Notes under the pieces: model-generated
Seen by the model: the letters and a program-made list of their open reading frames with translations, nothing else
The model's database searches: none
What the model was told of the DNA's origin: nothing
Shown here: positions 2,205-6,588 of the stretch, piece by piece
How positions within the stretch are numbered: the stretch's first letter is position 1
How the letters are laid out: the number at the start of each line of letters is the position of its first letter
Program-made: the position numbers and the translations under genes
From: Pseudobdellovibrionaceae bacterium
Lineage (GTDB): Bacteria; Bdellovibrionota; Bdellovibrionia; Bdellovibrionales; Bdellovibrionaceae
Assembly (NCBI GenBank): GCA_014376325.1
Contig: JACMRP010000120.1
Coordinates: 1-7,843 of the forward strand
Direction: 5' to 3'
Length of the DNA: 7,843 nt

Positions 2205-2987
2205 TTGCAACTAGGTTTGAATCTTCACCAAAGGGTTGCGCTGATCGCGGGTCCCATGAGCAGCACGGTTTCAAGCGTCGTGATGGGACTAACCCGCATG
2301 GGTGCCGATTGCATTATTCTGGATCCCGATAAGTCCGTTCATTCCGCGTTCATAAGTCAGATCAACGACGCTCGCGAAATCAACGACAAGTTCGGCAGGG
2401 CCTCGGTAATCCCGACAGATTTATCGACCACCGCGAACATCAAAGACACGATCGGCAAAGCCTCGCAAGTTTTCGGTGGCTTAGATATTTTTATCGACGC
2501 GCAGATGGTGAACAAACCGACGCCGCTAACGATTGATGGAACCTTGGACGGCATCGAAGGTTTGGACCTGATGTTAGATAGACATCTGAAAAGCACGTTG
2601 ATCCTGACACAAGGCGTGTTGGCATTTTTCAAAAGCCGCAAGCGCGGAAGAATCATTTATTTCCTGAACGACTCACCGGTCGCAAAAATAAAAGAAGACG
2701 TGGTCGTCCACGCGGTAAGATCGGGCTTGATCAACTTCGCCTCGGCGCTCGCTAAACAAGTCAGCGAATTCAACATCACGGTCAACATCTTGTCGCTAGC
2801 GCTCACGGAAGAATACATTTTAGCCCACGACCCAGATTCAAAATCCATCAAAGAAGCCCTAGAAAAACTAAAAACCACAGACCCAACAACAAAAATAACC
2901 GAACCCGACAAAATCAGCCAAACAGTCAGCTTCCTAGTAAGCCCAATGGGCGCAAGCATGACCGGCCAACACCTCAAACTCTCTTAG
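2205..2987 (+). CDS. Short-chain dehydrogenase/reductase-fold protein with degenerate active site
   Basis: A 260-residue protein with the length and order of a classical SDR Rossmann fold: LHQRVALIAGP opens it (7-17), VFGGLDIFI (89-97) is the beta-4 region, GRII (148-151) beta-5, and SFLVSP...MTGQHL (242-256) the usual C-terminal end. The key motifs are altered. The glycine-rich TGxxxGxG is AGPMSSTV (15-22), NNAG is DAQM, and aligned to FabG the catalytic Asn, Ser, Tyr and Lys become His127, Asn155, Val168 and Arg172. It is therefore probably not a normal oxidoreductase; a binding or regulatory role, or a divergent chemistry, are inferences. The start is taken as TTG at 2205, 4 bases after the thiolase stop with a weak GGA 8 bases ahead. 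An upstream in-frame ATG at 2133 lies deep inside the thiolase gene and would add a non-SDR tail. The last 53 codons have odd codon use, and the stop codon lies in a repeat. Confidence 0.82.
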   Translation: MQLGLNLHQRVALIAGPMSSTVSSVVMGLTRMGADCIILDPDKSVHSAFISQINDAREINDKFGRASVIPTDLSTTANIKDTIGKASQVFGGLDIFIDAQMVNKPTPLTIDGTLDGIEGLDLMLDRHLKSTLILTQGVLAFFKSRKRGRIIYFLNDSPVAKIKEDVVVHAVRSGLINFASALAKQVSEFNITVNILSLALTEEYILAHDPDSKSIKEALEKLKTTDPTTKITEPDKISQTVSFLVSPMGASMTGQHLKLS

Positions 2988-3030
2988 GTACGCCCTTCTT
3001 TTTGGGCATGCAGCGCTTCATAATATCCGG
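2982..3030 (+). repeat. REP-like palindromic repeat, copy A
   Basis: Positions 2982-3011 match 5263-5292 (other strand) exactly over 30 bases. The centre is a small hairpin, GCCC (2992-2995) TTCTTTTT GGGC (3004-3007), which with one mismatch extends by GTA (2988-2990 region) pairing to TGC on the far side. Weaker similarity to copies C and D continues to ATCCGG at 3025-3030. The unit covers both the SDR stop (TAG, 2985-2987) and the transposase stop (3018-3020) of two convergent genes. Confidence 0.75.
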
Positions 3031-3659
3031 AATTCTTCAGACGACGGTTTTTTGCCGGATTTCCGGCAGCGTTTGATCTGAAACTCACGGCGTTTCAGCG
3101 CTTTTCTAATAAGTTCATTGTCGTCTATCCGAGGCGGCGAATTAAGCCAATACAGAGTGCGTTCGGTAGAAATGAAGAGCTCTTCATTAGCAAATGTGGG
3201 TATTGATAAATGCTCGAAGCCAAGGAGGCCGCGTAAAGTAGAGTAGGCGTATTCTTCCACACTTTGAGCGATCCCCGCGCTGATGGGATTTCTTAAAGCG
3301 TATTTATATACGTTGCTATAGTAATTTAAATCTGTGATGAGGCAGGCATTGTAAGCGCCGCCGAAGTTATGATTTATTCGGTCACTGGCTTGACCAAGGC
3401 AGCGGCTGGTTTCACGCTGAAGGTAGCACATTGCTTCTTCAATGTTGGATTTTGGAGTGCTCAAGATAAGATGGTAATGATTATTCATCAATACGAAAGC
3501 GTGAATCTCAACACCGTAAGCGATCGTGATAAAATAAAGATAGCGGGAGAAGATTTCCCAGACCTCATCGAGTGGAATTGCAAACCAGTCCTTATTGTTA
3601 CACCTTGCCGATATATGATATGGGAACTCCGAACTACGGATTCTATTTTTTCTAGGCAC
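3018..3659 (-). CDS. REP-associated tyrosine transposase (RAYT, Y1_Tnp/HUH family)
   Basis: A 213-residue protein of the IS200-like Y1 transposase superfamily, RAYT branch. These enzymes cut and rejoin single-stranded DNA at REP palindromes through a 5'-phosphotyrosine. Seen: the N-terminal FPYHISARCNNK (12-23), like the family's YHVTSRGN; the metal-binding HUH motif as His61-Tyr62-His63 in MNNHYHLIL; and YALRNPISAGI (120-130), where Tyr120 fits the catalytic tyrosine of the family's YxxxNPVRAG motif. A Lys/Arg-rich tail (189-204) is typical. The start is GTG at 3659, picked because GAGGA sits 8 bases upstream; no in-frame ATG fits as well. All catalytic residues are present, so it looks intact. 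It is convergent with the SDR gene and flanked by repeat copies A (3' side) and B (5' side), the usual setting of a REPtron. Confidence 0.88.
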   Translation of the reverse strand: MPRKNRIRSSEFPYHISARCNNKDWFAIPLDEVWEIFSRYLYFITIAYGVEIHAFVLMNNHYHLILSTPKSNIEEAMCYLQRETSRCLGQASDRINHNFGGAYNACLITDLNYYSNVYKYALRNPISAGIAQSVEEYAYSTLRGLLGFEHLSIPTFANEELFISTERTLYWLNSPPRIDDNELIRKALKRREFQIKRCRKSGKKPSSEEFRIL

Positions 3660-3703
3660 GTTAGTTTCCTCGCAGTAATTTCTGACAGAGAAAATTGCAC
3701 GCC

Positions 3704-3729
3704 GCGTACCAGATAAGAATGGCGTACCT
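3704..3729 (-). repeat. REP-like repeat, copy B (diverged)
   Basis: Read on the minus strand, this segment aligns without gaps to copy A at 20 of 26 positions. The AGGTACGCC and TTCTT blocks are kept, but the GGGC arm that closes the hairpin is changed to TGGT. GGTACGC occurs twice inside it, 17 bases apart. It lies just upstream of the transposase ribosome binding site, inverted relative to copy A. Confidence 0.6.
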
Positions 3730-3758
3730 TTTAGAATTGCTTTGTTGGAAGATACTGA

Positions 3759-3780
3759 GTGTCCTTGTACTTCGGGACAC
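3759..3780 (+). promoter_or_regulatory. Leader hairpin just upstream of the ribosome binding site
   Basis: GTGTCC (3759-3764) and GGACAC (3775-3780) form a perfect 6-bp stem around a 10-base loop. It ends two bases before the strong Shine-Dalgarno AGGAGGAG (3783-3790) of the gene starting at 3796. It could modulate translation or be the remains of an older 3' end; the sequence alone does not decide. Confidence 0.4.
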
Positions 3781-3795
3781 GAAGGAGGAGACCTC

Positions 3796-4587
3796 TTGGC
3801 TCAAAAATTCATCGCGATAGCGCTCGTTATTATTATCGGACTTTGGTTAGGGAAATACTTCGAGAAGAAACCCGAAAAACCTCTGGTGAAGGATAGCTCG
3901 GGAGTAAGTTTGTTGAAGCACGGGGCTCCAGCCTCCATGACTGAGTCTGATGAGACCAAAGCGGTCGCGGAACCTCAACTCCCAGTAGTCAACAAGCCTG
4001 CAGAGCCGGTTTCTAAACCGACGGAAGTTCAAGCCTCTGATCTATCGCGTATCGAAAGTTTTTTTCAGTCAGGGAAGGCGCCAATTTCTTTCGCTGATTT
4101 AGAGCGGCGAACGACGCCACTTAAACTACCAAGAACATCTGCGAAACCAGAAGAAGTAGATACAGGTATTGCTGGTATCTACACGGGCTATATTTTTGAG
4201 AGCAAAACGCAATTACAGCGAATTCGAATTTCGACTGCGGTCGAGAACCGCGTGGCACTCGAAGGAAGCATTTCTGTAACCTCCGGAACGGCGATGGTCG
4301 ATTACGCTATAACCGGCGCAAATCAAAAAAACTTTGGTGGAGATCCTTATAGTTTCGTCTACAAGATTCCGGATGGCAGAATCATCTACGTAAAACTGTT
4401 CACAGATGTTTATTTCACGAAATACTCGATGAGTTTAAGAGTCATGAGCGGCTGGATAGTAGACCCAGCAATGAAACACATTTTAAAGCTAGCGCTGATG
4501 GACGACATGAGCGTCGTAGATCAGAAGCCATGGCCCGATCAAGAATTGATCGAGCCTCTCCTACCCGAAAAGACATTGCGGCCATAA
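3796..4587 (+). CDS. Membrane-anchored protein of unknown function
   Basis: I do not recognise this 263-residue protein. It starts with a single hydrophobic segment (about residues 4-19, FIAIALVIIIGLWLG) flanked by Lys, with no lipobox or clear cleavage site, so it is probably an inner-membrane anchor with the rest in the periplasm. A Pro/Glu/Lys/Val-rich linker follows (about 25-85), then a folded-looking C-terminal part (about 115-255) rich in aromatic residues and beta-strand-like stretches (GIAGIYTGYIF, GRIIYVKLFTDVYFTKYSMSLRVMSG in parts). TTG at 3796 is preferred because AGGAGGAG lies 6-13 bases ahead of it. The reading frame stays open upstream to a TTG at 3742, but that extension carries a Cys/Gly-rich stretch (ECPCTSGHEGG) encoded by a hairpin and would put polar residues before the anchor. 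The 3' end, with stop at 4585-4587, lies inside repeat copy C, and the gene converges on the Tat-exported protein gene. Confidence 0.7.
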   Translation: MAQKFIAIALVIIIGLWLGKYFEKKPEKPLVKDSSGVSLLKHGAPASMTESDETKAVAEPQLPVVNKPAEPVSKPTEVQASDLSRIESFFQSGKAPISFADLERRTTPLKLPRTSAKPEEVDTGIAGIYTGYIFESKTQLQRIRISTAVENRVALEGSISVTSGTAMVDYAITGANQKNFGGDPYSFVYKIPDGRIIYVKLFTDVYFTKYSMSLRVMSGWIVDPAMKHILKLALMDDMSVVDQKPWPDQELIEPLLPEKTLRP

Positions 4588-4625
4588 TAATGCGCCGCTT
4601 GCCCAAAAAGAAGGGCGTACCTTAA
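4578..4625 (-). repeat. REP-like palindromic repeat, copy C
   Basis: It shares an exact 23-base core (4600-4622) with copies A and D, including the GCCC (4601-4604) AAAAAGAA GGGC (4613-4616) hairpin, and it has one extra base in the outer TTAAGG end. Weaker similarity (12 of 19 positions to copy A) runs back to 4578. The unit covers the stop codons of both convergent genes, at 4585-4587 and 4622-4624. Confidence 0.7.
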
Positions 4626-4981
4626 GCGATTGCTAGGCGGACGGTGTGCGAGTGACCTGCGTCTTCGGACGAGTCTACGTCGACGACTTTAGTTTTTTGC
4701 AGCGTCGCTAAGATTTCTGCCGTGATAGTAACGGTGTGCGGGTGTGATGAAGTTCCCTGGATGTCGTGGTCGTTTGCGCCCGCAGCTAAAAGATCTTTCG
4801 ATGTCGCCACAAAAACGTGTCCGTGATTTCGTGAAATGTTTGCGGATAAGACACCCTCAGCCGCGAATGCACGAGTCGGAGCAGTCGTGATCGCGACCAA
4901 AGTTCCGGCAGCGGCCATTGCGCTCAGTTTTAGAAATTGACGACGGGAAACTTGCTTTAAGATTGCGTTGGATGAATTCAT
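4622..4981 (-). CDS. Tat-exported small histidine-rich protein
   Basis: A 119-residue precursor. Residues 12-18 (SRRQFLK) are a canonical twin-arginine motif, followed by a hydrophobic region (about 19-36) and an AFA-AEG cleavage site after residue 40. It should therefore be exported folded, leaving a mature part of about 79 residues. That part carries three His-x-His pairs (His53/55, His80/82, His110/112) plus His72, in the phrases NHGHVF, SSHPHTVTIT and DAGHSHTV. The last two look like internal repeats of one beta-hairpin unit. Metal binding (copper, zinc or similar) is a reasonable inference from the His pairs and Tat export, but no cysteine or known enzyme motif is present. The ATG at 4981 is well supported by GAGGAGG six bases upstream. 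The stop codon lies at the edge of repeat copy C. It is separated from the HD gene by 314 bases and probably has its own promoter. Confidence 0.8.
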   Translation of the reverse strand: MNSSNAILKQVSRRQFLKLSAMAAAGTLVAITTAPTRAFAAEGVLSANISRNHGHVFVATSKDLLAAGANDHDIQGTSSHPHTVTITAEILATLQKTKVVDVDSSEDAGHSHTVRLAIA

Positions 4982-5295
4982 TTAAAACCTCCTCAGGTTT
5001 GTTGATGTGCGGAACCTACAGGAGTGAAACCTTAATAACGATAGCCTCCGCGGAATACCCTATATTCCTAAAACGTAGAGCGTGAGCCGCGCTTGTAAAT
5101 TTACTGCGTGCGCTCCATCCGTTGGTTATGAGGCTTTGAATGTGATTCGTCTTGTAGATTTTAAACTTGAGAACGAAATTCGCTGCATAACCTTATGAAG
5201 TTATTACCTAGGCAAGGGCGTCGTTCCGATGCTCGGAGCTCTGCCGGATAAAATTACGCATCGCATGCCCAAAAAGAAGGGCGTACCTAAGATTC
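4982..5295. other. 314-base intergenic region with two palindromes and repeat copy D
   Basis: No convincing gene is seen here. It should hold the promoter of the Tat-exported protein gene. Two palindromic sites stand out: GGAATA (5052-5057) and TATTCC (5063-5068) separated by CCCTA, and the perfect 10-base palindrome GTAAATTTAC (5095-5104). Both lie 70-125 bases upstream of that gene's start, where an operator or activator site could sit. A 7-base inverted pair, GGTTATG (5124-5130) and CATAACC (5186-5192), is too widely spaced to weigh much. The right end is taken up by repeat copy D. Confidence 0.45.
5244..5292 (-). repeat. REP-like palindromic repeat, copy D
   Basis: Positions 5263-5292 are identical to copy A over 30 bases. 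The next 19 bases, out to the CCGG at 5244-5247, match copy A at 12 positions with no gap. The hairpin is GCCC (5267-5270) AAAAAGAA GGGC (5279-5282). It begins 3 bases beyond the HD-gene stop codon, in the same orientation relative to that gene as copies A and C have to theirs. Confidence 0.75.
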
Positions 5296-5304
5296 CTAAG
5301 ATTC
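5287..5304 (-). repeat. Perfect 9-base tandem duplication carrying the stop codon
   Basis: CTAAGATTC occurs twice in a row (5287-5295 and 5296-5304). On the gene strand this is GAATCTTAG twice, so the HD gene ends Glu-Ser-stop and an in-frame copy of the same codons follows at once. The outer copy belongs to repeat copy D. Confidence 0.7.
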
Positions 5305-6588
5305 GGTGAGAAGTTTTTCGGCGTCGGCGTAGTTTTCTGGGGCTACGTAGAGGCGGTCGATGATGCGCGCGCCTTCGTAACGCGAAAAGATTTCGGTGGA
5401 TTTGTCGATCGGGGCTGGTTTGTCCCAGCGGTCGTATTGGTCGACGACGAAGATTTGCATCGCTCGGTCTTCGGGCGAAGCCGTGTGGTACTTCGACAGT
5501 CGAGTCTTGGAGCTCGCCCAGATCGTGTCGATGCCTTCGGATTCTAGTTTCTTTTTGATGGTCTCGGCCCTGCGGTCTTCCGACGTGTTGTGAAGTTCCA
5601 TCAAGACTTTGTAAGGCCGACGCTGCGAAATTCGTTGCGCCCACGCATTCGGTGAACTCGCTAAATGCTCGTGCAACTTATAGTCGTTGTACTTCGTATA
5701 CTCGTTGATGTCGGCGGGCAGGACGAAAGAGCAGTCCTTCGACATCAGGTATTTGTTCAGCATCTCTTCGTAAATGATGCTCTTGTGATGGAAATAAACC
5801 ATCAGGTACATATGATGACGAGAAATCAAAAAGTCATCAAACGCATACAATGCCCGGCGGTTCAGCGCCAAGTACATCTTGCCCTCGTGCAGGTGAGTGG
5901 ACATATTCTGCAGAATCCACGCAAGATCGATCTTTCCGTAGTTCGTTCCGCAGAACAGCGAATCGCGTTCTAAATAATCCATACGATCGACGTCGAGTTC
6001 AGAACTGACCAACTGACTTAATATAGGACGGTAATCAATTCCATTATCCATAAAAAAATCATCAGGGCAGATCAGCGATTTATCGATCAGACAAGCGACG
6101 TGCACTGGACTAACGTCAGGGAAGCGCGCACGGATAACTTCCGCGATGTTTGAATCGGTCACGTATTTTATTGTGTAATCTTCGTGGTTCGCGCGACGGT
6201 TTTTGTGGAGCTCGGGTCGACCCACGGTTTCGTAGATCTTCACGTCCAACGCCTCGACCATCGGCATGACTTGTTCTGAAGTATGACTTAATGGACCGTG
6301 CCCCACATCGTGCAGCAGTGATGCCAGCCGAAAGGCCTGGCGTAATCGCAGGCGGGTCGCATTCTTTGTGAAGGGCAGTGCCTTAAAGATCGCATCGAAG
6401 GCCAGTCCCGCTAAGTGCGCGACGCCGACAGAGTGTAGATAACGATTATGAGTTGCACCGGGAAAACTAAATTCCGCAAAGCCGAGTTGCTTGATCGCGC
6501 GAAGGCGTTGGTATTCGGCAGTGTCTAGGACGGCTACTTCGGCATCGGAATAATAGATAGAACCGTGGACGGGGTCTCTGATTTCCAT
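5296..6588 (-). CDS. HD-domain phosphohydrolase (COG1078/SAMHD1-like family)
   Basis: A 430-residue HD-superfamily protein related to bacterial dGTP triphosphohydrolases and SAMHD1. Seen: the family N-terminus MEIRDPVHGSI, EYQRLRAIKQLG (25-36), FPGATHNRYLHSVGVAHLA (42-60) with metal ligand His52, LLHDVGHGPLSH (91-102) with His93-Asp94, the HEDYT phrase (135-139), and LDVDRMDYLERDS (198-210), whose aspartates complete the metal site. Metal-dependent hydrolysis of a nucleotide phosphate is expected; dNTPs are the best guess, but related proteins differ in substrate. The start is fixed by the family N-terminus and by in-frame stops just upstream. There is no Shine-Dalgarno; instead the ATG lies in a perfect hairpin. 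The gene follows a 32-residue membrane peptide by 26 bases, and translational coupling to it is plausible. It ends in a duplicated stop codon next to repeat copy D. Confidence 0.9.
   Translation of the reverse strand: MEIRDPVHGSIYYSDAEVAVLDTAEYQRLRAIKQLGFAEFSFPGATHNRYLHSVGVAHLAGLAFDAIFKALPFTKNATRLRLRQAFRLASLLHDVGHGPLSHTSEQVMPMVEALDVKIYETVGRPELHKNRRANHEDYTIKYVTDSNIAEVIRARFPDVSPVHVACLIDKSLICPDDFFMDNGIDYRPILSQLVSSELDVDRMDYLERDSLFCGTNYGKIDLAWILQNMSTHLHEGKMYLALNRRALYAFDDFLISRHHMYLMVYFHHKSIIYEEMLNKYLMSKDCSFVLPADINEYTKYNDYKLHEHLASSPNAWAQRISQRRPYKVLMELHNTSEDRRAETIKKKLESEGIDTIWASSKTRLSKYHTASPEDRAMQIFVVDQYDRWDKPAPIDKSTEIFSRYEGARIIDRLYVAPENYADAEKLLTES

Follow-up and report, generated by a model that had tools for sequence, protein, structure and literature searches.

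Among the described Y1/HUH transposase systems, two come closest to the locus reported here. In the REPtron of the TnpAREP type (E. coli, PDB 4er8; PMC8266576) the gene is flanked by inverted repetitive extragenic palindromes (REPs) carrying a GT[AG]G tag; PMC6006769 gives short REP hairpins a stem of 7-20 bp and a loop of 2-5 nt, and links W94 and Q95 of E. coli TnpAREP to the reading of GTAG. In the TIRtron, whose transposase is called TIRYT (PMC3733652), the gene is bracketed by terminal inverted repeats (TIRs) unlike the GTAG REPs, and PMC6006769 takes it as mostly TnpAY1 subclass 2.1. TIR families and TIR dimers have already been reported (PMC3733652), and in two Marinomonas REP systems the repeats are reported to cluster close to the gene (PMC8266576). 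We analyzed a 7843 nt stretch (the window) from a Pseudobdellovibrionaceae bacterium (contig JACMRP010000120.1), which holds a transposase gene of the REP-associated tyrosine transposase (RAYT) class and four copies, A to D, of a repeat that an earlier note had taken for parts of a candidate REPtron. Our results suggest that the locus is probably TIRtron-like, with a Y1/HUH gene bracketed by TIRs of ~46 nt (A and B) that its product most likely recognises, and with C and D as solo ends. On present evidence it is better named TIRtron-like than REPtron, and works like a TIRtron.

The transposase gene has 213 codons, with GAGG 8 nt upstream of its start. The protein scored 29.1 bits against Pfam PF01797 (Y1_Tnp, cut-off 23) and 48.4 bits against the NCBIfam model REP_Tyr_transpos, the latter under the cut-off of 80. 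None of the residues N60, H61, H63, Y120, N124 and P125 varied among the 120 aligned sequences, which include the window protein, and H61-Y-H63 together with Y120 are presumably the metal-binding and nucleophile residues. The tyrosine motif reads Y120-ALR-NP, which is the class 2 HUH form (Y---NP) and not the Y---Q of the IS200/IS605 enzymes (IS608, ISDra2), from which the window protein differs also in being longer and its gene in being flanked by inverted repeats. The predicted structure had a predicted local distance difference test (pLDDT) score of 92.6 and 4er8 as its best PDB match, giving it the TnpAREP fold. When the PDB was searched by sequence, the window protein alone returned chance-level matches only, in contrast to the family profile, which retrieved 4er8. 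Fold and catalytic residues thus bear out the complete RAYT-type Y1/HUH gene claimed by the earlier note, and the locus is a real, well-formed one of the RAYT class. At E 0.001 Pfam found Y1_Tnp as the sole domain and no C-terminal helix-turn-helix (HTH)-like domain, and the tail consists of short helices (159-188) in the model. However, two TIR-flanked relatives (L005 and L009, see below) also have short tails.

Inverted copies A and B bracket the gene and two further copies, C and D, lie close by, as the earlier note had it. With up to 3 mismatches allowed, the 26-mer AGGTACGCCCTTCTTTTTGGGCATGC matched the window three times (A, C and D) and was found in none of 200 shuffles. At the same tolerance the pattern AGGTACGCCNTTCTT (AGGTACGCC-N-TTCTT) found the four copies A to D and nothing else, each without a mismatch (positions 2986 (+), 3729 (-), 4622 (-) and 5288 (-)), as compared to a mean of 0.52 matches in shuffles, where four matches were reached once in 200. 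Over 30 bases, TCTTAGGTACGCCCTTCTTTTTGGGCATGC, A (2982-3011) and D (5263-5292) are identical, as had been claimed. The 30-base unit proposed on that ground is nevertheless too short: ~20 more bases inward of the core are alike in all four copies (a score equalled by 13 of 5000 random window quartets), and therefore the homologous repeat unit is ~46 nt. Within the 26-base core A, C and D agree with each other at 25-26 bases and B with each of them at only 20; pairwise, A matches D at 86% over 49 nt, C at 83% over 48 nt and B at 72% over 39 nt. B holds GGTACGC twice, 18 nt apart. A scan of 84,980 species genomes (257 Gb) with a 21-mer from the repeat gave one exact match, which was the only copy in its genome, a Bacteroidales bin that had no match to the REP-transposase model NF047646; we take it as chance, since ~0.2 matches are expected in that amount of DNA, and it has no bearing on the genome of the window itself. 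The repeat was not found in viral contigs. About 40 nt before the transposase start, the inner half of B (3697-3709, - strand) forms a hairpin that resembles a terminator (GTACGCGGCGTGC, then AATTTTCTCT) and could dampen transposase expression.

The protein search listed 119 homologues, from Bdellovibrionota in every case where a group was named. In the alignment of 120 sequences the HUH motif was NHYH in 66 and NHFH in 54, and the alignment column 123 gave Y--RNP in 98 and Y--QNP in 16. The W motif was FG in 75 (as in the window), YG in 26, FA in 8, WG in 6 and five other forms once each, so that [FYW]G occurred in 107 and FQ in one. In the profile alignment to 4er8 the F and G stand opposite W94 and Q95 of TnpAREP. 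The combination of [FYW]G with Y--RNP is absent from every row of the subclass motif table in PMC6006769, a table of 11 rows in a paper whose abstract counts 12 subclasses; subclass 2.1 comes nearest by its NH[YF]H. Thus the enzyme clade of Bdellovibrionota is, judged by motifs, different from the described subclasses. With the TIRtron the locus shares the gene bracketed by A and B, the extra repeat copies, NH[YF]H and Y---NP, whereas the residue directly before NP (Y--[RQ]NP) and the length (213 aa vs. a TIRtron median of 238) differ. It was not filed as subclass 2.1, because W[EQ]/FQ is not present and Pfam found no HTH tail.

The phylogenetic tree had 66 rows (37 Bdellovibrionota, 16 2.1-like and 13 Bacteroidota); the labels 2.1-like and 2.6-like were given by motifs and phylum, and the tree holds no reference sequences of other published subclasses. 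Loci that failed the motif filter were dropped: L007, with an internal stop, L018, a fragment, and 10 Bacteroidota loci out of 24. All 37 Bdellovibrionota rows sat on one branch (length 1.53, support 100/100). Such a single group is expected, because the 37 rows, of 120 listed, had been picked by similarity; what argues for a distinct clade is the long branch that separates it from the 2.1-like and Bacteroidota rows, together with the motifs. The 2.1-like rows did not form one group: 14 of 16 stood together, and the long-branched rows L011 and L051 fell outside.

A similar layout recurs in distant relatives. A plasmid search gave 11 records, with all best places below 31% identity, of which nine were examined. 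Searches of viral contigs with four single-protein queries gave no relative, the family alignment A2 gave one distant relative (L002) and the mixed alignment A3 gave seven loci, one of which (L012) is the A2 place again; the phage collection gave none. Flanking TIRs were present in 9 of the 16 related loci, all outside the lineage of the window: six of nine on plasmids (L003, L005-L009; not L004, L010 and L011) and three of the seven distinct viral-contig loci (L002, L013, L017; not L014, L015, L016 and L018). Read toward the gene, the upstream arm has a GGG(G)TCAG or GGGACGG core in eight of the nine, the direction being reversed in L002, and copy B carries AGGTACGCC at the same place and in the same direction. 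In alignments tested with 2000 shuffles, the Acetoanaerobium repeat TTAGGGACGGTTCTTTTTG (L003) resembled copies A and D (p 0.0005 for either) and copy C (p 0.0065), a likeness that is suggestive, no more, as 28 comparisons were made. At its upstream end the Acetoanaerobium core stands twice, 19 nt apart, similar to the doubled GGTACGC in B.

The counts of TIR copies covered the records of L003, L005-L008 and L017, leaving aside L002, L009 and L013, and extra copies near the gene were found in all five plasmid records searched. The Acetoanaerobium record (NZ_CP154629.1, 2.63 Mb) has 36 copies with up to 3 mismatches, as compared to one for the backward-pattern control, and of the 34 that remain without the flanking pair, 31 lie no more than 85 kb from the gene (binomial p 6e-34). 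The Pseudoalteromonas record (0.80 Mb) has 11 further copies, 10 of them no more than 5 kb from the gene (p 2e-18). Both p-values assume independence of the copies, an assumption that tandem duplication would violate. One extra inverted pair is present on the Legionella adelaidensis plasmid, ~5 kb away, and one on the Sporomusa plasmid, ~10 kb away. The Iodobacter plasmid carries two gene copies, each with a set of four repeats beside it, and on the viral contig of L017 a single additional copy lies in tandem. The Pseudoalteromonas plasmid pTHAF3_a (L007) has one stop inside the transposase frame, yet 12 of 13 repeat copies there are within ~5 kb.

In three examined stretches between 376 and 416 kb of the Acetoanaerobium record (L027, L028 and L029) there are six inverted TIR doublets, whose arms stand 41-91 nt apart. 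All six that we examined keep a remnant of the transposase-gene 3' end (37-53 aligned nt, 84-90% identity), with scores of 39-77 against highest scores of 29-33 in 500 letter shuffles, the shortest being barely above (39 vs. 33); three of the six were independently recovered by the protein search. The doublets are miniature, internally deleted forms of the element within ~50 kb of the full gene. Gene-end remnants and clustering were not met in the available part of PMC3733652. Two more candidate doublets, with a spacing of ~156 nt, lie near 342 kb of the same record.

IS200 enzymes work as dimers. By analogy, the window enzyme would, most likely as a dimer, bind one strand of an AGGTAC end while this is single-stranded; Tyr120 would cut the single-stranded repeat end and the enzyme would then rejoin it, and segments bounded by such ends would thereby be moved or copied, mainly nearby. 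C and D may be solo ends that this activity left behind, after copying or movement over a short distance from the gene; their place at gene 3' ends would explain why they are tolerated. What the data show is the gene, its conserved catalytic residues and predicted fold, the four homologous repeat copies, and the similar layout and local repeat clusters of distant relatives; recognition of the repeat, its cleavage and its mobility in this organism are inferred. In the literature searched, as far as it was accessible, two papers name TIR-flanked Y1 genes and no activity is reported for them, and result listings held nothing on topic that joins RAYT, REP or IS200 with Bdellovibrio. Within 2.3 kb the locus unites a diverged enzyme, two flanking ends and a pair of solo copies, a compact natural substrate series suited to the question of how an HUH enzyme without a GTAG guide selects its DNA, and the deleted Acetoanaerobium elements, keeping the gene 3' end and clustered nearby, make local spread directly testable.

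Several points weigh against the TIRtron-like reading. Seven of the 16 relatives have no flanking TIRs, although two of these (L014 and L018) are cut by contig ends, and this is the one Bdellovibrionota locus whose DNA was read. The window protein is without the W[EQ]/FQ of subclass 2.1, and the core AGGTACGC fits the published TIR motif GGGGWSAS at 5 of 8 positions. Copy B was no more like the Acetoanaerobium TIR than shuffles were (p 0.22), and six other TIRs tested were not significantly like any copy (lowest p 0.097). The clustering distances of 85 kb and 5 kb were set after the positions had been seen.

A true REPtron, in which a GTAC guide replaces GTAG at the foot of a GCCC-TTCTTTTT-GGGC hairpin and the repeat belongs to a REP family abundant genome-wide, seems unlikely to us. 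It shares with the window the fold, the HUH and tyrosine residues, the inverted flanking copies and local clustering of the Marinomonas kind; in each of the four copies GTAC immediately precedes the stem on its 5' side, and B keeps the inner 4-bp stem, where one pair has changed on both sides (C-G to A-T) and another from G-C to G-T. The earlier note was right that the repeat is unlike GTAG/GGAG-type REPs. The locus departs from REPtrons as published: there is no GT[AG]G tag, W94/Q95, the two GTAG-linked residues that could be aligned, are replaced by F-G, and the 4-bp stem with its 8-nt loop is outside the REP rule quoted above. The homology also extends ~20 bases beyond the core. Folded as DNA, A reached -3.3 kcal/mol, which 151 of 200 shuffles equalled, and D was equalled by 139; B preferred another pairing (35 of 200), and C did better than shuffles (3 of 200), owing to another hairpin that is separate from the first. 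The register of the hairpin is clearly the best over the four copies, with 92.9% of cells paired vs. at most 42.9% when slid, and at best seven imperfect pairs form if a T-G pair is counted and a mismatch skipped. Covariation over the four copies was not significant (134 of 500 shuffled-partner sets equalled it). Of the palindrome claimed earlier the GCCC/GGGC stem thus stands, but it is weak, and selection on it is not demonstrable.

That the repeats are 3'-end elements, i.e. transcription terminators or mRNA-end hairpins that lie near the transposase by chance, is quite unlikely. The core of A overlaps the stop codon of the dehydrogenase gene, that of C the stop (TAA) of the Tat-signal gene, and D closely trails that of the HD-domain gene, while A and C are between convergent genes; as RNA, A forms an imperfect 7-bp stem of -10.3 kcal/mol, equalled by 26 of 200 shuffles (C 71, D 63). 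However, no U-run follows the stem, no Rfam match was found up to E 1, B lies upstream of the transposase gene in a divergent region, and a terminator scan of the window, which gave 10 sites vs. 5.1 in shuffles, included none of A, C and D. It is very unlikely that the mobile unit is the whole A-D segment (2.3 kb), with the orphan and Tat-signal genes as passengers of the transposase. A is closer to D and C than to B, but the higher identity would also follow if C and D had arisen recently by copying of A. In a word-limited search of 5.8 billion proteins the orphan gene had one homologue (P0242, 70%), on a contig equal in size (1707), and apparently identical, to that of the closest transposase homologue (P0002, 75%), which plain synteny in a sister species explains as well; and no empty site was seen.

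We put forward only tentatively that the locus represents an undescribed Bdellovibrionota subclass of Y1/HUH enzymes, fast-evolving and inherited near the conserved HD-domain gene, with GTAC-type terminal repeats and with solo ends that supply stop codons to neighbours. Four transposase homologues and HD homologues have a longest contig of equal size, and their identities to the window were 59% and 86% (contig size 15151), 60% and 84% (1769680), 54% and 73% (258572), and 51% and 70% (16669), respectively. If equal-sized contigs are the same, inheritance keeps the transposase in this neighbourhood, where it evolves faster than the HD gene. Faster change than that of neighbours is reported for RAYTs (PMC2817692). 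A further match, at contig size 3476, was not relied on, because that contig is short and the size is shared by two separate HD rows. At least two transposase paralogues (P0024 and P0055) occur in Bdellovibrio sp. KM01.

Features of the window around the transposase gene (cores and stop codons as positions of the window)
Feature	Coordinates	Strand	Remarks
Molybdopterin-binding oxidase fragment, then thiolase	left part of window		
Short-chain dehydrogenase/reductase (SDR)-type dehydrogenase	ends 2987		stop TAG 2985-2987
Copy A (downstream TIR)	2982..3030	+	core 2986-3011; occupies the gap between SDR stop and transposase stop
Y1/HUH transposase (RAYT class)	3018..3659	-	GTG start; Pfam PF01797
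Copy B (upstream TIR)	~3684..3729	-	core 3704-3729; diverged
Orphan gene	3796..4587	+	263 aa, hydrophobic N-terminus; divergent from transposase
Copy C (satellite)	4577..4622	-	between convergent stops of orphan gene and Tat-signal gene
Small twin-arginine translocation (Tat)-signal protein gene	4622..4981	-	Pfam PF10518, 27.5 bits; stop codon overlaps copy C
Copy D (satellite)	5243..5292	-	after HD-domain gene stop
HD-domain protein gene	5296-6588	-	
Flagellin gene	right end of window		beyond HD-domain gene

A reading of the locus as a defence system was checked and found no support. The HD-domain protein is 94% identical to the nearest database protein listed and 85% identical to that of Bdellovibrio sp. 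HCB337, which marks the source as a relative of Bdellovibrio. Copy D adjoins the stop of its gene, where 9 bp, CTAAGATTC, are duplicated in tandem (5287-5304). At the C-terminus the closest HD homologue reads LLTEKK and the window protein LLTES, a single comparison that agrees with the repeat having replaced the last HD codons.

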